IMG/VR virus record: IMGVR_UViG_3300044640_002616
Coordinates: 1 to 46,919 of that record
Direction: 5' to 3' (one strand)
Length of the DNA stretch: 46,919 nt
Source of the DNA: a virus
Shown: positions 9,203 to 42,029 of the stretch, one piece after another
Numbering within the stretch: position 1 is the stretch's first letter
How the letters are laid out: every line of letters begins with the position of its first letter
Notes under the pieces: model-generated
The model's input: the letters and a program-made list of their open reading frames with translations, nothing else
The model's database searches: none
What the model was told of the DNA's origin: nothing
Translations under genes and position numbers: made by a program

Positions 9203-9333
9203 GGGGAGATGGCGAAATTGGTAGACGCTTAGTTCAAGTGCTCGTAGACGATAGGTTTAAAAGCCGACAATATATTTGAGCTGGTACGAAAAACCCGAAG
9301 TACAAGGTGCAGGTTCAAGTCCTGCTCTCTCCA
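9203..9333 (+). tRNA. tRNA-Leu-like gene with enlarged anticodon region
   Basis: The acceptor stem GGGGAGA pairs with TCTCTCC (one G-U). The D-arm is GCG-AAATTGGTAGA-CGC with the Leu-type GGTAGACGC end, and the T-arm is GCAGG-TTCAAGT-CCTGC. A GTAC/GTAC pair fits a long variable arm. However, the total is 131 nt against 85-90 for a normal tRNA-Leu. The extra 40-odd nt lie in the anticodon arm, where TAGTTCAAGT can pair with ATTTGAGCTG. No normal seven-base anticodon loop is visible, so the anticodon is undefined. The gap 9086-9202 before it has no recognised feature. Confidence 0.6.
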
Positions 9334-19486: not shown

Positions 19487-19768
19487 ATGAGTGAAAAATC
19501 AACACTAAAAAGCGAAGTACAAAAAGTTAAATCTGGGACTATATTTAGTGAAACTCGTATAGCAAATGCTTTTGTTAAAGAAAGATTTCCTAATGCGGTA
19601 TTTGTTCCTTGTTGTGCGTTAGGTTGTTATTATGGAGTTTATGAAGATGCAACTTATAATGTACACGTAGCTGATTACAATTATTTACAAGCTGAAGATG
19701 TTATACCTAGAAATTGTCCGCCTCCAAGCCCATTTGGAGTTTATTTTAAATTAATATGGAAACGATGA
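19487..19768 (+). CDS. hypothetical protein, 93 aa
   Basis: The protein has C-C-A-L-G-C-Y-Y-G in its middle and P-P-P-S-P near its end. It begins MSEKS, as does the DnaB-like protein that follows, and the two genes share the 15-nt start ATGAGTGAAAAATCA. Function unknown. Confidence 0.6.
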   Translation: MSEKSTLKSEVQKVKSGTIFSETRIANAFVKERFPNAVFVPCCALGCYYGVYEDATYNVHVADYNYLQAEDVIPRNCPPPSPFGVYFKLIWKR

Positions 19769-20673
19769 GTGAAAAATCACATTACTTAACACCAGAAGTG
19801 GACGTTGAGTGGGCAGAGTTAGAAAAAGAATGGGCTAATCAGACTGATGAATATGACAATACTTTTATGAGTGTTGTTAAGCGTGGACTTACTGGAGCAA
19901 ATGAGGGTTTAGACAATGGGATGAAGGAGATTAACCAATACATACATGGTACTCATCGTGGTAGATATATACTTATAGGAGCTGACAGTGGTGTAGGTAA
20001 AACTACTATTGCCGATTTCATGTATGTATACTCTTTATGGAAAGCAGCTAAGGCAAAGGGAATTAAACTTTACATAAAGTATTTCTCCTTTGAAATTTCT
20101 ACAACTGAAAAGAAAGCTAAATGGGTATGTCAATGGATTAAAACTTTGTATCATTTAGATTTGTCTACTGATTATGTCATGGGACGTATACCCGGTTTGT
20201 TACTTACACCAGAACACTTAAAGTTAGTGATGAGGGCTTATGCAGTTGTAGAAGAAGTCATGAAAGACGTTGTGATAATTGACCACATGTTGCACCCTAC
20301 AGGAATGCTGAATAAGCTAATTGAAGAACACTATGAAAAAATTGGTGTAGTAATTAGAGATGCTCCTAAACAAGGCAAGTCTAAAGGGATGATTCGTGGA
20401 TACAAAGCTTACGATCCAAAATCTATGACCTTAGTTTTAGTTGACCACTTAGCGTTAATCAATGCTGAGAGTGGTTGTGCTACTACTAAACAAATTATGG
20501 ATAGATGGTCTATGTATTGTGTTCAGCTTAGAAACATATTCCAAACTACTATCATCAACATTCAGCAGTTTTCTACAAGCATGATGAGTGCTTACAGAGA
20601 CCAGAAAAAAAGCGAAGTTGCTATCAGTCCACAACGATTGGATTTTGGAGATTCTAGTTACACATTTCGTGAT
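19765..20673 (+). CDS. DnaB-like replicative helicase, exon 1
   Basis: This is the N-terminal 303 residues of a RecA-fold replicative helicase. Walker A is G-A-D-S-G-V-G-K-T-T (near 72), the region before L-V-D-H-L-A-L is Walker B, and I-N-I-Q-Q-F-S then D-F-G-D-S-S is motif H4. The ATG at 19765 overlaps the previous stop (ATGA); 19756 is an in-frame alternative. The coding sequence is cut after the Asp codon GAT at 20671-20673 by a group I intron and resumes at 21843. Joined, the protein is 407 residues long. Confidence 0.88.
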
Positions 20674-21842
20674 TAACCAAAAAGTTAGGTTTTATCACAT
20701 AGATTAAGTAAATTACATCATGAAAAAAATTGAGATAGATATTCAGAAATTAACTGAATTTCATAGTCAAGGTTTATCTGATAATAGTATTGCATTGAAA
20801 TTTCAATGTAATGCAGAAACAATCAGAAATCGGAGAAAAGCACTAGGCTTAGTATCTAATCAAGGTGTAACAATAAATGGGGTTCACATTAAGCAAACTT
20901 CGATTAAATTAAAGCAATTACAACCTTTAGTAGAACAAGGTTTAAGTGATTATAAGATTGGGCCTATACTAGGATATGATGCAAGAACTATTTACCAAGC
21001 AAGAAAGTTTTACAAACTTCAACGAGAGTCATTAAAACATGGTAAACATGTAAATGTTTCTCCGAAACAGTTAGAAATTCTTATTGGACATTTACTTGGA
21101 GATGGCAGTTTTAGAAGAAATTCTGTTAATGCTACAGGTAAAATATCACAAGGTATTGCTCAGTTAGAATACACTAAATGGAAAGTACAAGAATTAAAAC
21201 CTTTATGCAGTGATGTTGTTATTTACACTCGAAAAACAATTGATGTAAGAACTGGTCTTTATTATACATCAGCAGAGGCTAGTATTTATGCAAATCCTGA
21301 ATTAAATTGGGTGTACGATATGTTTTACGGTAAAGGTTATAAAGAACTTAATTCTTCTCTTCTAATGTATGTTACTCCAATTTCATTAGCTGTTTGGTTT
21401 ATGGATGATGGGTATATTGGTAAAGAAGGGTCATATTGTATTGCTACTAACAGTTTTAAAGAAAGAGACGTATTAAAGAGTATTTTTAAAAAGTTTGGAA
21501 TTGAAATAACTATTCATAAAATAGGAGTTACTTATATCCCAAGAAAATACGGTCAAAAGTTTGCTAATTTAATTTCTCCGTTTATAATACCATCTATGTG
21601 GTACAAATTACACCGCAGTCACGTAACTCCGTTAATTCAGGGGAAGCCTTAGAGTAAGGTAATCCTGAGCCAAGCCTTTGTAGGAATACATTGGAAAGGT
21701 GCAACGACTAAGAGTGAGCCCAGACCGGGCAATAATTCTCACACGAAAGCGGGGCATTGTCAAAAAATGACAATGAAGATATAGTCTAAACTGTAGATAT
21801 AACTGATGAAACTACAGAAGTATAGGATAAAGAGCCTATACG
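20674..21842 (+). mobile_element. group I intron with LAGLIDADG gene, in dnaB-like gene
   Basis: This intron of about 1.17 kb interrupts the helicase just after motif H4. Its core lies after the endonuclease frame. AATCCTGAGCCAAGCC and GGTGCAACGACTA, then GAAGATATAGTC, carry the P7 pairing GACTA/TAGTC. Close to the end GTATAGG pairs with CCTATAC (a P9-type hairpin), followed by G21842 as the terminal guanosine. Joining GAT (20673) to ATA (21843) gives the continuous frame R-D-I-I-T-M-A-D-L-V-L-G-L. The 3' boundary is well supported; the 5' boundary follows from the frame and the usual U before the splice site. Confidence 0.88.
20720..21652 (+). CDS. LAGLIDADG homing endonuclease with N-terminal HTH repeats
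   Basis: The 310-residue protein has two LAGLIDADG motifs, L-I-G-H-L-L-G-D-G-S (near 121) and L-A-V-W-F-M-D-D-G-Y (near 222), so it can act as a monomer. It would cut the intronless dnaB-like allele and so drive intron homing. Residues 1-90 contain two helix-turn-helix-like repeats (G-L-S-D-N-S-I-A and G-L-S-D-Y-K-I-G), which could help DNA recognition. The gene lies wholly inside the intron, with its own ATG 46 nt after the 5' splice site. Confidence 0.92.
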   Translation: MKKIEIDIQKLTEFHSQGLSDNSIALKFQCNAETIRNRRKALGLVSNQGVTINGVHIKQTSIKLKQLQPLVEQGLSDYKIGPILGYDARTIYQARKFYKLQRESLKHGKHVNVSPKQLEILIGHLLGDGSFRRNSVNATGKISQGIAQLEYTKWKVQELKPLCSDVVIYTRKTIDVRTGLYYTSAEASIYANPELNWVYDMFYGKGYKELNSSLLMYVTPISLAVWFMDDGYIGKEGSYCIATNSFKERDVLKSIFKKFGIEITIHKIGVTYIPRKYGQKFANLISPFIIPSMWYKLHRSHVTPLIQGKP

Positions 21843-34146: not shown

Positions 34147-34428
34147 ATGTCAAAGTATAAATTACCAGTCAATTTCAAAGATTTGCATTATACTGAAAGA
34201 AAAGAGGTAATGCAACAATACATTGAAGAGCAAAAAGGAATTTGTTATTATTGCAAATGCAGTTTAAATGAACCAGCACCAATAGATAAAAAAGTGAATT
34301 GGTCGTTATTTCCTGAAAACTTTTTACAGTATTCAATTCATTTACAACACTGTCACAAAACAGGAATGACAGAAGGTGCTGTACACAACTACTGTAGTGC
34401 TGTATTGTGGCAATACGAAAATAGGTAG
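34147..34428 (+). CDS. HNH-type nuclease-like protein (Endo VII-like)
   Basis: The protein has C-Y-Y-C near residue 35, then H-L-Q-H-C-H-K-T-G-M-T-E-G-A-V-H and C-S-A-V-L-W-Q-Y. The pattern C..C, H..HxH..G...GAVH, C..VLWQY recalls a family of small HNH proteins related to T4 endonuclease VII. One zinc-side Asn/Asp (usually HDH) is Cys here, so activity is uncertain. It sits just before the cassette array. Confidence 0.6.
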   Translation: MSKYKLPVNFKDLHYTERKEVMQQYIEEQKGICYYCKCSLNEPAPIDKKVNWSLFPENFLQYSIHLQHCHKTGMTEGAVHNYCSAVLWQYENR

Positions 34429-34470
34429 AATATTCATTGCTCGGTAAGTTGTACTAAAGTTGATTAAAGA

Positions 34471-34530
34471 TACACGGTTTAGCAAGTAATTTGGCTGCCC
34501 TGCTTGCATAAAACCGATTGTTATGGGCAG
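34471..34530 (+). repeat. attC-like site 1 (left boundary)
   Basis: CGGTTTAGCAAG (34475-34486) and CTTGCATAAAACCG (34503-34516) form the inner arms; GTTATGGGC (34520-34528) is the right end. The left outer end is weak (ATACACGG), so this may be a boundary site such as a degenerate attI or attC. Confidence 0.6.
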
Positions 34531-34543
34531 GCAATTAGAGACT

Positions 34544-35044
34544 ATGAACATAATTTTTTTAGACATTGATGGTGTGTTAAATTGTCAAATATTCTACACC
34601 AACCGAAAGAAATCAAAAAGCATAATTGAACACCCACAAGACCAAATATGTACTGAAAGGGTTGAGTGGCTAAATCAGCTTTGCAAGGATGTAAATGCAA
34701 AGGTTGTTATTTCATCAACTTGGCGGCATAGCGGATTAGATTACTGCAAAGACGTTCTTAAAAAAGCTGGGGCGACATTTGAGATAATTGATAAAACTCC
34801 CGACCTAAGACACGCAGGTTGTTTAAGGGGCAATGAGATAAACCTTTGGATTGAGCAAAATAAAGAAATGCTTGGCGTGTGGCGTTCTGATTTCAATTCC
34901 TATGCAATTATTGATGATGATAGTGATATGCTTTACTGGCAGCGAAATAATTTGTTTTTAACCGATACTTATTCTGGTCTTACCCCGAATACTTGTTATC
35001 GCATAAAACGTCATTTTGAGCAATTAGGGTGTGTCCCTGTTTGA
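34544..35044 (+). CDS. cassette 1: HAD-like hydrolase
   Basis: I chose the ATG at 34544 (MNIIFLDIDGVLN). F-L-D-I-D-G-V-L-N is HAD motif I with the nucleophile Asp, V-I-S-S-T-W-R is motif II, and Y-A-I-I-D-D-D-S-D is the acidic motif IV. It resembles the HAD domain of RNA-repair ('Swiss army knife') proteins and is common in bacterial cassettes. The product (166 residues) is probably a phosphatase; its substrate is unknown. Confidence 0.75.
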   Translation: MNIIFLDIDGVLNCQIFYTNRKKSKSIIEHPQDQICTERVEWLNQLCKDVNAKVVISSTWRHSGLDYCKDVLKKAGATFEIIDKTPDLRHAGCLRGNEINLWIEQNKEMLGVWRSDFNSYAIIDDDSDMLYWQRNNLFLTDTYSGLTPNTCYRIKRHFEQLGCVPV

Positions 35045-35045
35045 T

Positions 35046-35181
35046 CATAACGTAAAAGTATTGTCGTTCGTTACGGCATTGAAAAACAAAAGTTCAATAA
35101 CAATTAAAAGCTAAATATATGCACAAAGTTGAAGTTACAACGTCAAGCCGTAATGGCGGCAATACAGTATTACCTGCTGCC
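35046..35181 (+). repeat. attC-like site 2
   Basis: The left end is CATAACG. Inner arms GTATTGTCGTTCGTTACGGC (35058-35077) and GCCGTAATGGCGGCAATAC (35147-35165) pair with a few mismatches. The right end is TATTACCTGCTGCC, matching the end of cassette 2 (GGTAGCAGGTAA) in reverse complement. The right arm lies within the start of cassette 2's gene. Confidence 0.75.
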
Positions 35182-35538
35182 TTGTCTGTCGAGCAGGGTA
35201 ATTGTCTAATTGCAGAGTTTATGGGGATGGAACGAACAGAAAAAGAGACAGGCGAACCAACATTTAAACAAGAACAAAATGCAGTTATATGGGCTTCACA
35301 GCTTATGTATAAAAATTCGTGGGATTGGCTAATGCCTGTTGTTGAAAAAATTGAAGATAATTTCAAGGCACACATTACTATCTACAACAAACAATGTTGG
35401 GTTGAATTTTATGGCATACACGATGACCCTTGTCAATTTCATAATAAAGATAAATCCACCATTGAAAACATTTGGTTATCCATTGTAAGTTTTATTGAGT
35501 GGCATAATCAGCAGGGTTTGTCCAAAGGTAGCAGGTAA
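35119..35538 (+). CDS. cassette 2: hypothetical protein (LIAEFMG family)
   Basis: The 139-residue protein contains C-L-I-A-E-F-M-G and S-W-D-W-L-M-P-V-V-E-K-I, shared with cassette 4's product. The two are paralogs of a small family seen in Bacteroidota. Residues 1-25 (T-T-S-S-R-N-G-G-N-T) are encoded by the right arm of attC-like site 2, so the natural N-terminus may be partly site-derived. The TAA stop falls in the core of the next site. Function unknown. Confidence 0.65.
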   Translation: MHKVEVTTSSRNGGNTVLPAALSVEQGNCLIAEFMGMERTEKETGEPTFKQEQNAVIWASQLMYKNSWDWLMPVVEKIEDNFKAHITIYNKQCWVEFYGIHDDPCQFHNKDKSTIENIWLSIVSFIEWHNQQGLSKGSR

Positions 35539-35637
35539 CGGTTCGGGTGTTTAATTGAAATACAAAATTTGATAACATGGAAAAAGTTGATTTGAAAAAC
35601 GAAAGTGAGCCGTTGAATAAACACCTTGTTACCTGCC
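35531..35637 (+). repeat. attC-like site 3
   Basis: The left end is GCAGGTAACGG and the right end GTTACCTGCC. Inner arms include GGTGTTTA (35546-35553) and TAAACACC (35618-35625). The right part is translated within cassette 3's frame. Confidence 0.8.
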
Positions 35638-35786
35638 GTTGCATGGTATGTGGCGAAGAATTTAAAGGCGAAGAACCTAAAATGTGTTGTAGTGGTAGAG
35701 ATTGTGGATGTATGGGAGTGCCAATAGACCCCATTATTTGTTCAGAAGAATGTTACAATAAGTTGCCTTTTCGCAATGGCAGGTAA
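35577..35786 (+). CDS. cassette 3: small zinc-binding protein
   Basis: The 69-residue frame has C-R-C-M-V-C-G-E-E-F, M-C-C-S-G-R-D-C-G-C-M-G and I-C-S-E-E-C, enough Cys for one or two zinc sites. The first Cys of the CxxC pair lies before Met23, so translation must start upstream, inside attC-like site 3. The stop TAA is the TAAC core of site 4. Function unknown. Confidence 0.65.
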   Translation: MEKVDLKNESEPLNKHLVTCRCMVCGEEFKGEEPKMCCSGRDCGCMGVPIDPIICSEECYNKLPFRNGR

Positions 35787-35919
35787 CGGTTCTGGGCTTT
35801 GTGCAGGGCGTAATTTATAGGTGTCAGCCCAGCCTTTGCACTTAGCTAAATTGAAAAACTAAAGTTGAATTATATAACCGTCCGCAAGCCTTGCACAAAA
35901 CTTTTTGTTGCCTGCTGCT
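35773..35919 (+). repeat. attC-like site 4
   Basis: The left end is GCAATGGCAGGTAACGG and the inner left arm GGGCTTTGTGCAGG (35794-35807). The right side is CCTTGCACAAAAC (35889-35901) then GTTGCCTGCTGC (35908-35919). The cassette 3 start GTTACCTGCCGTTGC matches this site's left end at 14 of 15 positions in reverse complement. Confidence 0.85.
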
Positions 35920-35959
35920 TGAAGTCATTTTGACTTAGGACACAAAACAAAAAAAATAC

Positions 35960-36322
35960 ATGTCTGAACAAGAAATTTTAGAAGCAAACAAACTGATTGC
36001 TGAATTTATGGGAGCAATTGTACTTAAAGAGCCTATTGGACATGCTCAAAGAAACATTCAATTTTTATACGAGGTAGAAGGTATTTTTTTACATAGGGAT
36101 TATGATTTAAAATATCATATATCATGGGATTGGTTAATTCCAGCATGTGCAAAATTCGATTCAATTTTTTTTGGCGAAGACCGTACAGATATGCAACAAG
36201 AGTACATTGAACTATCTGACGAACTTGACTTTAAGGCTACATCTTATGAATTAATACCATTATTTGAACAGTTAGTTAATTGCATTAAATGGTATAATTC
36301 GCAGCTTGTGTCCGACAAGTAG
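35960..36322 (+). CDS. cassette 4: hypothetical protein (LIAEFMG family)
   Basis: This 120-residue protein shares N-K-L-I-A-E-F-M-G, S-W-D-W-L-I-P and C-I-K-W-Y-N with cassette 2's product. The two genes are paralogs placed in separate cassettes. It is soluble and acidic. The function is unknown. Confidence 0.7.
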   Translation: MSEQEILEANKLIAEFMGAIVLKEPIGHAQRNIQFLYEVEGIFLHRDYDLKYHISWDWLIPACAKFDSIFFGEDRTDMQQEYIELSDELDFKATSYELIPLFEQLVNCIKWYNSQLVSDK

Positions 36323-36397
36323 CAGGCAACGTTTGCGGCTTTATGCTGTTGGCACTTAGGTATTTTAAAACAGCATAAAACCGATGTTGTAGGTAGT
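36321..36397 (+). repeat. attC-like site 5
   Basis: This is the clearest site. CGGCTTTATGCTG (36336-36348) pairs with CAGCATAAAACCG (36371-36383). Outer ends are AGCAGGCAACG and GTTGTAGGTAGTG. The cassette 4 start GTTGCCTGCTGC matches the left end GTAGCAGGCAAC at 11 of 12 positions. Confidence 0.9.
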
Positions 36398-36402
36398 GCA
36401 TT

Positions 36403-36801
36403 TTGTTAAAAATAAAAACTTCTGGGTGGAGTTATAAAACCCAATTAAATATTATGCGACACGTACAAAAAGCATTAGTTAAGTTAGTTGCAAGTGAAAT
36501 TAAAAATCCAGCAATAAGTGATGAATTTATTGCAATAGAAAATGTAGAATATGTAAAAGGGGTTGCCCCAATTGTAAAGTTTACAATTCAAAGCGACCCA
36601 ATTGGTGAAGTTGGTGTAAATGGCTGTCAAGCATTAGATATGTTAAAGTATGTTAAGTGTTTATTTGAAAGCCTTAACGATTCGTTCCCTTGCTTTGAAA
36701 ATGATAAAACAATTTCTCATATACAAGAAGCTATTGAATGGCAAAATGCAAGAACAAAAGACCGTCTTGCAAGAAAAGTAGAAGGTGCAAACAAGGCTTA
36801 A
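36403..36801 (+). CDS. cassette 5: Acb2/Tad1-hairpin-like protein
   Basis: The 132-residue frame begins with TTG (36403) or ATG (36454). G-V-N-G-C-Q at residues 73-78, then I-Q-E-A-I-E-W-Q-N-A-R-T-K-D-R and a terminal R-K-V-E-G-A-N-K match a phage/bacterial family I know for NGVNGCQ...EEALxWQxxRTxDR...VEGTN. That family resembles Acb2/Tad1 cyclic-nucleotide sponges that block CBASS and Thoeris signalling. The link is from pattern memory only. Confidence 0.5.
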   Translation: MLKIKTSGWSYKTQLNIMRHVQKALVKLVASEIKNPAISDEFIAIENVEYVKGVAPIVKFTIQSDPIGEVGVNGCQALDMLKYVKCLFESLNDSFPCFENDKTISHIQEAIEWQNARTKDRLARKVEGANKA

Positions 36802-36841
36802 ATTGTCAGGCTGTGGCGGCATTCTTAGGGTGTCGCTGCAT

Positions 36842-36980
36842 TGCCTACAACGTCAAAGCATAGGCGATTGTGGCGGAATTTGAAAAACGTCAGCCTAGCC
36901 TTTAGATGCAGCCAAATAGCGATTTGCAGTTGAATTACTTAATCAGTCCGCCGACATATTGCCTATGCAATGTTAGCGGT
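36842..36980 (+). repeat. attC-like site 6
   Basis: The left end is TGCCTACAACG. Inner arms GCATAGGCGATTGTGGCGGA (36858-36877) and TCCGCCGACATATTGCCTAT (36947-36966) pair well. The right end is GTTAGCGG (36972-36979). Confidence 0.85.
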
Positions 36981-37004
36981 TCGTTACTTCTAAATGAGAA
37001 CAAA

Positions 37005-37226
37005 ATGACAGATAAACAATGGCAATCAGTTATCAATAAATGCAGAAAAGCAGGTAACGAACATCTTAGGCTGTTAAAAATAGCAGAAAATGAATACATA
37101 AAAAGGTATGGACATAACCCATCCGAAGTTGATGATGATTGGTGGATTGACACCTTGCATTATTGTAAAGGTAATACCGACTTGGAAAAGATTAAGCAGT
37201 CTGCGGAGTTACGCAATGACCGCTAA
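37005..37226 (+). CDS. cassette 6: small hypothetical protein, 73 aa
   Basis: I start at ATG 37005 (MTDKQWQSVINKCRKAG). An in-frame ATG at 36906 lies within site 6 and is less likely. The C-terminal half has E-Y-I-K-R-Y-G-H-N-P and D-D-D-W-W-I-D, a charged helical pattern frequent in small cassette proteins. The TAA stop lies in the next site's core. Confidence 0.65.
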   Translation: MTDKQWQSVINKCRKAGNEHLRLLKIAENEYIKRYGHNPSEVDDDWWIDTLHYCKGNTDLEKIKQSAELRNDR

Positions 37227-37421
37227 CGAACAGGGCTTGGCTGTTGTAGCTGGAATAGTGAACGTCAAGTTGGGATATAAAGATTAATTATTAACCAAAA
37301 GCTGAACTACATACAAAAGATGGATAGCGTTACGTCAGATGGATTTGAAGCACAATAACGATATACTGTTGAAGTGAATTATGTCGGGCAGCTATAACGC
37401 CAAACCTTTTGTTGTAGGCAG
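37219..37421 (+). repeat. attC-like site 7
   Basis: The left end is ACCGCTAACG, complementary to the cassette 6 start GTTAGCGG. Inner arms GGGCTTGGCTGTTGTAGCTG (37233-37252) and CAGCTATAACGCCAAACC (37389-37406) pair imperfectly. The right end is GTTGTAGGCAG. With 203 nt it is the longest site. Confidence 0.75.
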
Positions 37422-37438
37422 TTAAAATTTGTCAAATT

Positions 37439-37642
37439 ATGACACAAAAAACAGAATTATTTAAAAGAGATTTAGAAGCATTATTAAAAAAGTATAATGC
37501 AACAATGGAAATTAAAGAGCCTGAAAGTTATATTGAAAGCCATAAAATAAGTGTGTTTTTTGATAGCGTTTGGGATAACAATGCAAATGAATGTATGGAG
37601 GAAAGCCAAACGTTAATATTAGGTAGTTGCGTCATTCCTTAA
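37439..37642 (+). CDS. cassette 7: small hypothetical protein, 67 aa
   Basis: The acidic protein has F-K-R-D-L-E-A-L-L-K-K-Y-N-A, a helix seen in many small phage proteins, and a beta stretch I-S-V-F-F-D-S-V. The gene ends directly before site 8. Function unknown. Confidence 0.65.
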   Translation: MTQKTELFKRDLEALLKKYNATMEIKEPESYIESHKISVFFDSVWDNNANECMEESQTLILGSCVIP

Positions 37643-37781
37643 TTGCCTACAACGAACAGGGCTTTGTGCCGTTTTGGAATTTGAAATTCGTCAGCTTGTA
37701 CAAAAGCTGAAAAAAGGTACAAAAGTTGAAACACAGCATCCGTCAAGCCACAGTAACGGCAATACTTTTGTTGTAGGCAGT
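37643..37781 (+). repeat. attC-like site 8
   Basis: The left end is TTGCCTACAACG and the right end GTTGTAGGCAG. Inner arms include TTTGTGCCGTTTTGG (37662-37676) and AGTAACGGCAATAC (37752-37765). Cassette 7 start and end match at 12 of 13 positions. Confidence 0.85.
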
Positions 37782-37919
37782 GTTTACTGTCTATTTGGAA
37801 AGCATAAGTGGGGCGGTGATGATTTTAATACTTGTATAAATTGTCAAAAGAAAGCAATTGGATTACCTAAATATGAAAACCCACCACCGCCACCTGCAAT
37901 TAATAAACAGGTATATTGA
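37674..37919 (+). CDS. cassette 8: small zinc-ribbon-like protein
   Basis: The frame has only a TTG near its start (37674) inside site 8. The part after the site reads V-Y-C-L-F-G-K-H-K-W...C-I-N-C-Q-K-K, a short zinc-ribbon pattern, and ends in a proline-rich tail. No ATG lies in the mature part, so the true start is uncertain, and the gene may be degenerate or started within the site. Confidence 0.45.
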   Translation: MEFEIRQLVQKLKKGTKVETQHPSSHSNGNTFVVGSVYCLFGKHKWGGDDFNTCINCQKKAIGLPKYENPPPPPAINKQVY

Positions 37920-37983
37920 TTATTATACTTTGCTTGTACCATTTCATACCAAAGTCTATTTCTCATAAGGTGATTTTTTTAAC

Positions 37984-38142
37984 ATTGCCTACAACGAGCA
38001 GGTATTGCCGTTGCTGTGGGAATAGCGTTCCGTCAGCCGATTAGCGAATTAATAAAAGTACAATAATGAACAAAAAGCAAATTGCGGATTCGTCCGCCCC
38101 AACTGTTTTATACCGTGTCTTACCGCTCGTTTTTGTTCTTGT
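37984..38142 (+). repeat. attC-like site 9 (right boundary)
   Basis: The left end TTGCCTACAACG matches the start of cassette 8 (GTTGTAGGCAGTG). The inner arms are weaker (GCAGGTATTGCCGTTG against CCAACTGTTTTATACCG). The right side ends near GTTCTTGTC (38135-38143) with no further cassette, so this is the array's edge. Confidence 0.65.
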
Positions 38143-38236
38143 CTAAAAATAATTAGAAATATTTTGAAAATAATTACAAAAATATTTGGTAAATAGAAAA
38201 ATACGTTGTATATTTACATCTCTAAAAACTAAAAAA

Positions 38237-39347: not shown

Positions 39348-40496
39348 TTATAATCCCTTCCAGCTATTGATGATTTCAGTATCAATTTTATGTTGAGTTA
39401 CTGAGTAATAATTCTCTACACAAGTCTTTATAGTAATGCCCATGAGCTTGGCACAAGTTTCAGATGAGATGCCTCTGTCAGCACACATGGTAATGGCGAA
39501 CGTGTGTCTTCCAGTGTGACTGGTAATGCGTTTGTCCCATTTAAAATGTTTATTCACGTTTTTTAAATGTCTATTGATGACAGGCTCTGCAAGTGTAAGC
39601 GGATATAGTTCTGTAAGTGCAATAATCTGTTTTAAGCTTTGTGTCAAAGGTATGAATACCCACTCATTATTCTTATGAGCTTGTATCTTAACTTTAGTTT
39701 CATCCACATGAGCTTTAGAGTTGAATTTATACCAATCACTAATTCTAAGTCCGGTGTAACAACCCAATAGTAAGTATACAGCTACTACCTTATCATTACC
39801 TTTTAAGTCATTGAGTTTATTGAAAATTGTTTGTACTTGCTCCAAACTAAGGTAGTCTTTTACAGGTGTCTTATACACAGGATTCTCATAGACTTTAAAT
39901 GGGTAATTGGTGATTAATCCACGTTTGATAGCTGCATTGAAAATAGACTTTAGAGTTTTGAAGAGAGCATGAATGTAATTGTTGTTTACAGTTTTTCTCA
40001 GGTGTGTTTCATAAGCGTATAGAAATTCAGCTGTAATATCCTCGAAGTTTAAATCTTTATTACCGTAGAATAGCTCAAGTCGGAGTAGATGTTTAGTGTA
40101 ATTAACCAATGTACCTGGTGTTCGCTTATGTTCAACTTCTTTACTGAATTTTGTAGTAAATTCAAAAATATTGGTTTTCTTCTCGACTACCACAATTTGT
40201 TTCAGACTGTTCTTTAAATCTTTAGCGGAAAATACTTTTTTCTGAAAGTTAAGCATGTTAGCAACGACAGCTACTTGGTTTTTTCTAAAACTTAAATCTT
40301 CATTGATAGTTTTCTTGAGCTTGTGTAAGATCACTTCTTCCTTGCTGGCATCCCATTGACTTTCTTTTATTTTATACCCAGTGCTTTTATATGCAGCTTT
40401 ACCTTCAACTATAAATTGAAAGTAAATAGGAAATTGTCCCTTAGTATTCGGGCCACTATACTTCCAAAGAATAAAATGAGCTGAGTAATCAACCAT
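39348..40496 (-). CDS. int: tyrosine recombinase / phage integrase (Bacteroidota type)
   Basis: The 382-residue integrase has an N-terminal arm-DNA-binding domain (residues 1-90), a SAM-like core-binding domain (about 105-200) and a catalytic domain. Catalytic residues are R251 (T-G-L-R-I-S-D), H327 and R330 (H-T-G-R-H-T-F), and Tyr363 or Tyr364 in E-N-Y-Y-S-V. The usual second His (G-H) is replaced (M-G-I). The arm domain separates it from integron IntI proteins. Direct repeats and a tRNA-like core lie right at its start (40497-40720). It would insert the phage into a host tRNA gene. Confidence 0.92.
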   Translation of the reverse strand: MVDYSAHFILWKYSGPNTKGQFPIYFQFIVEGKAAYKSTGYKIKESQWDASKEEVILHKLKKTINEDLSFRKNQVAVVANMLNFQKKVFSAKDLKNSLKQIVVVEKKTNIFEFTTKFSKEVEHKRTPGTLVNYTKHLLRLELFYGNKDLNFEDITAEFLYAYETHLRKTVNNNYIHALFKTLKSIFNAAIKRGLITNYPFKVYENPVYKTPVKDYLSLEQVQTIFNKLNDLKGNDKVVAVYLLLGCYTGLRISDWYKFNSKAHVDETKVKIQAHKNNEWVFIPLTQSLKQIIALTELYPLTLAEPVINRHLKNVNKHFKWDKRITSHTGRHTFAITMCADRGISSETCAKLMGITIKTCVENYYSVTQHKIDTEIINSWKGL

Positions 40497-40720: not shown

Positions 40721-41430
40721 ACTAATTCTGAAGCTTCGTATTTATGAATCGAGTTTTCAATTAACACCGCTTCACGTTCACGACGAGTTAAAAGAGCTGT
40801 CATTCGTTTCTCAGACAATGTTGAAAGTAAAGTTTTATCATCCTTACCATCCCACAATCGCTTCATCTCTCTCACTTTATCAGCAATAGATTTGTAACGA
40901 AGTACAGTAGAAGCTTCAGTTAAAATTGATGATGGTGTTATCATGTCAATTAAAGGCTTCAACTCTTTCATCTCTCTACGTTTAGAGCCTTCAGTACTAG
41001 TACCACGATTGAACACTAAACTAAGTAATGCACCACTTGCGTCAGGAGTTAAATTAACTGTATTAGGATAAGCACGAACAAGCTCTTTAGCAAATCTTGG
41101 TAAAGTGTCAGTTGTAAATACTTCGTACGCTAGTTCCCAGCTTATTTTAAACCCTTTTACAGCTTGAGTAACTTTACCACCAGCATTAGCTCCTTTAATA
41201 CCAGCTACGTTTAGCATGTAATTTAAAATGTTTCCATTGACTTTACCTTCCCAGTCTTCACGAATTTGTTCTCTGGTATTATAACCTAAGTCGTAACCCA
41301 TACCAACTGTAACTCCAGATGCACCTGTTGGCCATGAAGGGGCTGCAAGGAATTTATTATAGTAATCTTTACCACCAGTCTCATCATTAATTAACTGGTC
41401 AATGGACTTTTTTGAAAATGTAATCATCAT
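40702..41430 (-). CDS. endolysin, T4-lysozyme/pesticin-like
   Basis: The 242-residue protein has E-T-G-G-K-D-Y-Y-N near the start, then G-V-T-V-G-M-G-Y-D-L-G-Y and, later, F-N-R-G-T. This E...D/T arrangement is that of pesticin and T4-type muramidases that cut peptidoglycan. No signal peptide is present, so a holin is needed. It overlaps the u-spanin candidate by four bases, and two holin-like genes lie upstream. Confidence 0.82.
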   Translation of the reverse strand: MMITFSKKSIDQLINDETGGKDYYNKFLAAPSWPTGASGVTVGMGYDLGYNTREQIREDWEGKVNGNILNYMLNVAGIKGANAGGKVTQAVKGFKISWELAYEVFTTDTLPRFAKELVRAYPNTVNLTPDASGALLSLVFNRGTSTEGSKRREMKELKPLIDMITPSSILTEASTVLRYKSIADKVREMKRLWDGKDDKTLLSTLSEKRMTALLTRREREAVLIENSIHKYEASELVTLELL

Positions 41431-42029
41431 GTGAATAGAGTTGATATAAAAGAAATTTTTTTACGGTACTTGTACGCTACAACAACTAAAACTATTAAGA
41501 GCAGTGGAAACAAAGACAACCATGGGACTCGCTTAGTTTTAATCTCTTTCTGCGTAATTTTACTTTCAGTGTGTACAGCAGTAGTTTTACCTGACGTACT
41601 TCCAGTACTGTCGTTTGTACTTGACGTAACAGTGTTATCAAAAGAAGCTTTGATTCCATCTTTAGTTTCACTTTTCTTGTTAGTTTTAACGCCAACTACT
41701 TTACGTCCACCAGGGTCAACTATAATACTGTCCCCTTTTTTAGTGATGACAATAGGGCCGGTAGCTTTAGTTGTATCTTTTTTGTCAAAGTCAATTTTAA
41801 CTCCAGATTTCTCTGAAGTTTTTTTGGTTTTACTACTGTCTTTTTTTACAGTCTCTTTTTTAATGGTTTTCTTAACTTCGAACGTGTCTTTATACTGATG
41901 TTCAGTACTATCTTTTTTTAGGATTGACGTTGACTTAGATACATTACGAGTATTACAACTCACTATTAAAAAGAAGAACAAGCTGAATAGATACACAACA
42001 GTTTGTAATTGTATTAAAGCTTTTTTCAT
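41427..42029 (-). CDS. lipoprotein with C-terminal membrane anchor (u-spanin candidate)
   Basis: The N-terminus is a lipoprotein signal peptide with a lipobox ending I-V-S-C (Cys25). A Lys/Thr/Ser-rich, probably extended, periplasmic region follows, then a hydrophobic segment about 170-188 and a basic end (Y-K-Y-R-K-K). One protein joining outer-membrane lipid and inner-membrane helix is the layout of a unimolecular spanin (as in phage T1). It sits between endolysin and holin-like genes, as expected for lysis. Confidence 0.7.
   Translation of the reverse strand: MKKALIQLQTVVYLFSLFFFLIVSCNTRNVSKSTSILKKDSTEHQYKDTFEVKKTIKKETVKKDSSKTKKTSEKSGVKIDFDKKDTTKATGPIVITKKGDSIIVDPGGRKVVGVKTNKKSETKDGIKASFDNTVTSSTNDSTGSTSGKTTAVHTESKITQKEIKTKRVPWLSLFPLLLIVLVVVAYKYRKKISFISTLFT

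Follow-up and report, generated by a model that had tools for sequence, protein, structure and literature searches.

What is the array of small genes at 34471-38142 of the IMG/VR virus record IMGVR_UViG_3300044640_002616? The whole stretch analysed, positions 1 to 46,919 of the record, is called the window below. A first-pass annotation had described this region as eight single-gene units separated by imperfect inverted repeats, and had compared it with integron cassettes. The region contains eight one-gene units, with all genes on the plus strand, and nine inter-unit sites, named A to I. We conclude that it is very probably an array of integron-like cassettes, belonging to a type that is widespread in Bacteroidota and having the mechanism proposed in the last section.

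The units lie head to tail on the plus strand, span 34520-37995 and are flanked by phage genes. They start with GTTRnn... (ATTACC in one unit) and end with ...nnYAAC; these ends are called boxes. In each unit, about 6 to 15 bases at the 3' end are the reverse complement of the unit's own 5' end. Unit boundaries were placed by eye before this complementarity was assessed by permutation. Beyond the GTT, own starts and ends match at 78 of 96 positions, compared with a mean of 37.5 for all pairings, and the identity permutation is the only one of the 40,320 pairings of eight starts with eight ends that reaches 78. An automatic scan found 8 end pairs in 34400-38200 versus 0.4 in Markov-model sequence, and the only chain of adjacent units that it detected in the window is this array.

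The sites are 55-183 nt long and form hairpins. On average their arms pair at -13.7 kcal/mol within a site and at -9.0 kcal/mol with the arms of other sites (permutation p 0.0004). The organisation given in the first-pass annotation, with units in one orientation parted by inverted repeats, is thus upheld both by own-end pairing and by arm pairing within sites. A search of the window at the Rfam gathering thresholds assigned no family to the array region.

Arrays and their putative recombinase in Bacteroidota

Arrays of the same type were found elsewhere by scanning 84,980 genomes with a box-pair pattern (two matching boxes and a gap of 100-130 nt). The scan matched 14 contigs, 13 of them from Bacteroidota, and many of these carry real arrays. 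A Flavobacterium metagenome-assembled genome has 11 units with near-identical 120-nt sites and differing box pairs, F. sedimenticola has about 21 units, and two Flavisolibacter species have 5 units each. A phylum-wide search with a single box pair matched 3 of 392 genomes, which is too narrow for an estimate of prevalence, and a recombinase profile was used instead. The first viral DNA pattern, which was too strict, gave 0 matches.

In the consensus of 83 well-matched units, GTTR is fixed, and the next bases are variable but agree between the two ends of the same unit. A G faces a T at position 11 in 75 of these units, and in 84 of 108 when this position is left out of detection. The boxes are unit-specific inverted sequences of the general form GTTR...G...//...T...YAAC. 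The integron R box (GTTRRRY / RYYYAAC) occurs in 3 of the 83 units overall and in none of the 8 window units. Between adjacent units, the boxes agree at 4.59 of 12 positions, versus 4.68 of 12 for random units of the same array (p 0.66); since neighbours match at chance level, the units appear to be shuffled.

The sites are 116-121 nt long in 53 of 60 cases. Among 47 mutually different sites, own arms pair at -17.5 kcal/mol versus -8.8 kcal/mol for mixed arms, and 0 of 20,000 permutations are as low. The fold was derived from end-anchored columns, which replaced a MAFFT whole-site alignment that misaligned the arms. It consists of one covarying stem with a constant offset of four positions, corresponding to an asymmetric spacer. 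The first-pass annotation had proposed to fold the bottom strand in search of the extrahelical bases typical of attC; in canonical integrons, such bases and unpaired spacers choose the strand that is recombined. Here the spacer is clear, and a single bulged base is present in some chromosomal sites only.

Hairpins located between co-directional genes could also be non-mobile regulatory or terminator elements of small phage genes. This explanation accounts neither for the unit-specific matching of the ends that flank each gene, nor for the near-constant site length across unrelated phages and chromosomes, nor for the exact gain and loss of a site together with a gene described in the next section. 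We consider it highly improbable.

A tyrosine recombinase gene adjoins the start of chromosomal arrays. Its stop codon faces the array and it has the same reading direction as the cassettes. The encoded protein has a conserved N-terminal extension (HRGxxxIAI...WSQT...WYLPDT). By hidden Markov models it is XerA-like (NF040815, up to 228 bits with a cut-off of 220) and falls under the IntI cut-off. The IntI-specific insertion is missing: 24 residues are present versus 67 in a comparison with IntI4, and 21-24 versus 59 in Shewanella IntI in 10 of 10 sequences. Recombinase relatives at E <= 1e-70 were found in 52 of 148 Bacteroidota genomes, and about 24 genomes have a full-length protein that includes the N-terminal region. 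Arrays are close to 15 of 20 full-length recombinases, in 14 cases on the side of the stop codon, and close to 1 of 15 control relatives without the N-terminal region. The control case is an array-like chain at L233:1953-5300. Flavobacterium covae (L136/L137) is an exception in layout; two identical copies of an array-type recombinase are separated by about 1 Mb, and here the arrays are on the side of the start codon, as in the classical divergent integron layout. In chromosomes the first cassettes lie next to the recombinase, where an integron would have its attI site; no attI was identified in the window.

Gain, loss and orientation of cassettes in phages

Arrays or single sites were found in a Lacibacter luteus prophage (L104/L143), in IMG/VR contigs such as L142, L150, L155/L159 (11 units), L156, L157, L158 and L160, in the Polaribacter phages P12002L, P12002S and Danklef, and in Flavobacterium Muminviruses. 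The cargo of these sister arrays is rich in DNA methyltransferases.

The comparison of related phage genomes, suggested in the first-pass annotation as a way to detect cassette gain or loss, revealed differences of a whole site plus gene in three sets of isolates. One such insertion, of 506 bp, distinguishes mumin6-1 from mumin6-3, two genomes with 99.9% identity around the locus. Its junction repeat is TAACGTT, exactly at the box, and the sites flanking the unit differ in sequence. The array of filifjonk9-1 carries an additional site plus gene at its end, next to the flank ...TATAAC|TACAATATTAC that is common to the Muminviruses compared; tooticki6-1 also differs at this position, and at such points of unit change the array-end flank of Muminvirus is constant. 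A 781-bp site plus adenine methyltransferase gene of Danklef_1 is absent from Danklef_2, with the junction TAAC. The empty locus of Danklef_2 is a bare TTAACTCTAAC with no hairpin site.

The three independent junction intervals share 4-8 bp, and TAAC is common to all of them. Because TAAC contains AA|C, which is G|TT on the other strand, the junctions are compatible with the integron cut point. As judged from these genomes, a phage unit consists of a single hairpin site and, after it, a single gene, and the comparisons indicate that cassettes are gained and lost, with a cut at G|TT, in phages of a related type.

Exchange of the repeats between phages by ordinary homologous recombination, with no site-specific enzyme, would produce some of the same features. 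Sites are alike within some arrays, sites H and I of the window look chimeric, and for one Muminvirus difference (three filifjonk units), which has 42 bp of common sequence, ordinary recombination is a possible cause. However, the overlaps at the three junctions are very short and all contain TAAC, the sites on the two sides of the mumin unit are dissimilar, and random crossovers would not keep the pairing of own ends in each unit. This explanation is very unlikely in our opinion. Even less credible are inverted-repeat transposons or miniature inverted-repeat transposable elements with one gene each. Inverted repeats of 9-15 bp do bracket each gene, but the natural mobile unit begins with a hairpin site, so its two ends are not mutual inverted repeats (mumin6-1/6-3, Danklef_1/2); moreover, the repeats vary from unit to unit and no transposase is present. 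With the integron-like reading retained, the description of an integron-type array in a phage without its own IntI is supported: the sites fold, the ends are unit-specific, related phages gain or lose whole units at the box, and no IntI was found in the window (best TIGR02249 match 25 bits, cut-off 265).

Gene orientation was counted using the longest open reading frame (ORF) per cassette. In 38 of 43 ORF-bearing phage cassettes the gene shares its strand with the AACG...GTT reading of the site, and in 5 it is on the opposite strand, whereas in chromosomes it is on the opposite strand in 56 of 61 cassettes and on the same strand in 5. In terms of single-gene units, the site is upstream of the gene in phages and at the gene 3' end in chromosomes. 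A cassette circle keeps its gene and its site in one orientation to each other, and the cassettes of phages therefore look like a pool of their own rather than a direct copy of the chromosomal one. No relatives of the array recombinase are encoded in the complete phages P12002L, P12002S and mumin6-1, hence a host enzyme is the likely mover in phages. In Danklef_1, a broken recombinase remnant is located directly past the cassette array end (L256:1998-2495, record 40997-41494); it resembles the array type (E 1.8e-31, internal stop) and may be a decayed recombinase that was once phage-carried.

The first-pass annotation had offered two origins, capture from a host integron or exchange by a host integrase. 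Exchange is the best explanation given the lack of recombinase relatives in complete phages, while capture is not favoured by the orientation counts. The same holds for a canonical cluster of attC sites lacking integron-integrases (CALIN), in which ordinary integron cassettes, bearing attC sites that an IntI recognises, would have been captured from an integron of the host chromosome. It shares the unit logic, the hairpin sites and the cut point with the array studied here, CALINs are known in phages, and one attC site of P12002L was recombined by IntI1 in E. coli (PMC9892861). On the other side are R boxes that do not follow GTTRRRY, a recombinase at chromosomal arrays without the IntI insertion, and the reversed orientation of genes relative to sites in phages. 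We regard a canonical CALIN as unlikely; the integron-like organisation stands, with sites that are without canonical attC boxes and a chromosomal recombinase that is not IntI.

Cassettes and surroundings of the array in the window

Site A (34471-34519) forms the left end of the array. It begins ...ATACACGG, has the hairpin arms ACGGTTTAGCAAG and CTTGCATAAAACCG, and is without the R'' half. Cassette 1 (34520-35051), with the ends GTTATG.../...CATAAC, includes an ORF (34547-35044) with a HAD domain (PF18143 HAD_SAK_2, E 1e-25, Pfam). It is followed by site B (35052-35168, 117 nt; own-arm pairing -18.0 kcal/mol) and by cassette 2 (35169-35539), which starts with ATTACC instead of GTTACC and whose ORF (35119-35538) encodes a protein of the LIAEFMG/SWDWL family. 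The hairpin of site C (35540-35627, 88 nt) is weak. Cassette 3 (35628-35787, 15-bp own ends) has a small Cys-rich ORF (35577-35786, phrog_19268) that begins inside site C. After site D (35788-35906, 119 nt; -14.0 kcal/mol), cassette 4 (35907-36330, 15-bp own ends) contains a LIAEFMG-family ORF (35960-36322), a paralogue of that in cassette 2. The bottom strand of site E (36331-36385, 55 nt) folds at -12.0 kcal/mol (z -5.4).

Cassette 5 (36386-36851) has matching own ends and an ORF of unknown function (36454-36801, phrog_2428). Site F (36852-36971, 120 nt; -21.0 kcal/mol) precedes cassette 6 (36972-37227, 9-bp own ends), and site G (37228-37410, 183 nt; -16.4 kcal/mol) precedes cassette 7 (37411-37653, 15-bp own ends); their ORFs encode unknown proteins of 73 aa (37005-37226) and 67 aa (37439-37642), respectively. 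Own pairing is weak in site H (37654-37769, 116 nt), which is probably chimeric. For the Cys-containing reading frame of cassette 8 (37770-37995, 15-bp own ends), no clear start codon lies within the cassette. Site I (37996-38142), which closes the array on the right, has an intact left arm, and a clear GTT box is missing from its right end. Pairing between the right arm of site H and the left arm of site I reaches -22.6 kcal/mol and is better than that of either arm with its own partner; for this reason both sites look like products of recombination inside sites. The array in the window is thus partly worn: sites A and I are each without one half, sites H and I look chimeric, and the start of cassette 8 is affected.

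The cargo consists of the HAD protein, two LIAEFMG-family proteins and small unknowns. A defence-family search of the eight cassette proteins gave no match. No arrays were found in about 1 Mb of viral loci picked by homology to the HAD and LIAEFMG proteins, which suggests that these genes are usually not in cassettes. The LIAEFMG...SWDWL family has 294 relatives in viral contigs, mostly outside cassette arrays. A direct BLAST search with the array as query returned nothing from phages or plasmids, and no close relatives of the phage were found via its exonuclease in the collections searched. Its DNA polymerase is ~25% identical to those of crAss-like and other phages.

A phage tyrosine integrase gene is located at 39348-40496 on the minus strand (Arm-DNA-bind_5, Phage_int_SAM_5). 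It is not of the array-recombinase type and is probably the phage's own integration enzyme. In a tree it is remote from the array recombinases; the tree is unresolved at the base, joins long branches and was used for this point alone. Elsewhere in the window, a group I intron (21544-21805; RF00028, 82.8 bits) is next to an ORF of 310 aa (20720-21652) resembling a homing endonuclease, and the region 20720-21805 apparently splits a helicase-like gene with its first part at 19756-20676. An Rfam tRNA match of 37.8 bits over 131 bases (9203-9333), with no ARAGORN call, is possibly a tRNA gene with an insertion.

Proposed mechanism and comparison with known systems

In our proposal, one strand of the site, in its folded form, is the substrate of the recombinase, which would cut at G|TT, and circles with one gene and one site could be released and inserted. 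In such a circle, the cassette's own two boxes would flank the site, pair over ~15 bp and extend the hairpin, making it ready for insertion. In the array, a site would be flanked by unrelated boxes of two different cassettes. As own boxes could pair only in the circle, circles are expected to insert more readily than arrays release them. The host recombinase may act on phage arrays during infection where the phage is without such an enzyme.

Several points weigh against this interpretation. The putative link between recombinase and sites is one of position and co-occurrence, and the action of a host recombinase during phage infection is inferred. Array detection outside the window requires matching ends, and therefore their frequency there is biased upward. 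Sites A, C, H and I of the window are worn, and gain or loss was not seen in the phage of the window itself, which has no close relative in the collections.

The accessory cargo, small genes here and many DNA methyltransferases elsewhere, is probably of use against restriction or defence by the host. In the study of the Muminvirus isolates, the authors related poorer plating on one host to the absence of a specific methyltransferase (PMC7077304). On balance we favour a broader model, held with less confidence than the identity of the array: Bacteroidota would have their own gene-capture system, based on a XerA-like recombinase and cassettes with matched own ends, and phages would keep a gene-inverted pool that is reshuffled by the host enzyme to change anti-restriction genes. 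If true, Bacteroidota have a large store of cassettes that has escaped notice together with its recombinase, and an integron is able to work without IntI. In phages, the arrays would be a concrete route for swapping small accessory genes, with methyltransferases as typical cargo. The cassette-specific paired ends yield a testable prediction on circle versus array recombination.

That integron cassettes occur in phages is, as a general statement, already known: integrons and CALINs in phages were reported by Qi et al. 2023 (PMC9892861). Like the arrays described here, their phage CALINs include integrase-free arrays in virulent phages with methyltransferase cargo, and Polaribacter phage P12002L is in both sets. 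In contrast, that study used canonical attC models and makes no mention of Flavobacterium phages, Bacteroidota arrays, their recombinase or gain and loss among isolates. IntegronFinder 2.0 (PMC9024848) recorded one complete integron in Bacteroidota, in Salinibacter ruber, and integrons were reported as very rare there; standard integron searches appear to miss the arrays described here. We found no account of the Bacteroidota array type, its recombinase, its spread or a separate pool of phage cassettes in the literature searched, with subscription papers and preprints outside the search, and we consider the Bacteroidota-wide system as provisionally new.

The recombinase has partial counterparts in known systems. 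Its best-scoring model is XerA (NF040815); unlike Xer proteins, it has the N-terminal extension and would act on many hairpin sites instead of one chromosomal dif-like site. Chromosomal integrons with a reversed integrase, typical of Spirochaetota (PMC9668308), also have a recombinase that reads with the cassettes and a stop codon facing the array, but theirs is IntI proper and the boxes differ. The entry of the Danklef_1 unit into a bare TAAC locus without a hairpin site is similar to attG, or secondary-site, insertion of integron cassettes (PMC12901181), although here it is one natural phage insertion only.

By the definitions of PMC9024848, the closest relatives are integrons and CALINs. 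The common features are tandem one-gene units, hairpin sites whose outer triplets are conserved and whose arms vary, a cut point compatible with G|TT, a recombinase at one end of chromosomal arrays and the addition of units at one end. The differences are boxes of a GTTRnnnGY-like form instead of GTTRRRY, cassette-specific over ~15 bp with a G facing a T at position 11; sites mostly of 116-121 nt; a XerA-like recombinase without the IntI insertion and with an N-terminal extension; and phage units with the site upstream of the gene. The array works like an integron, yet it is not a canonical member by the IntI domain, the GTTRRRY box and the gene orientation in phages.

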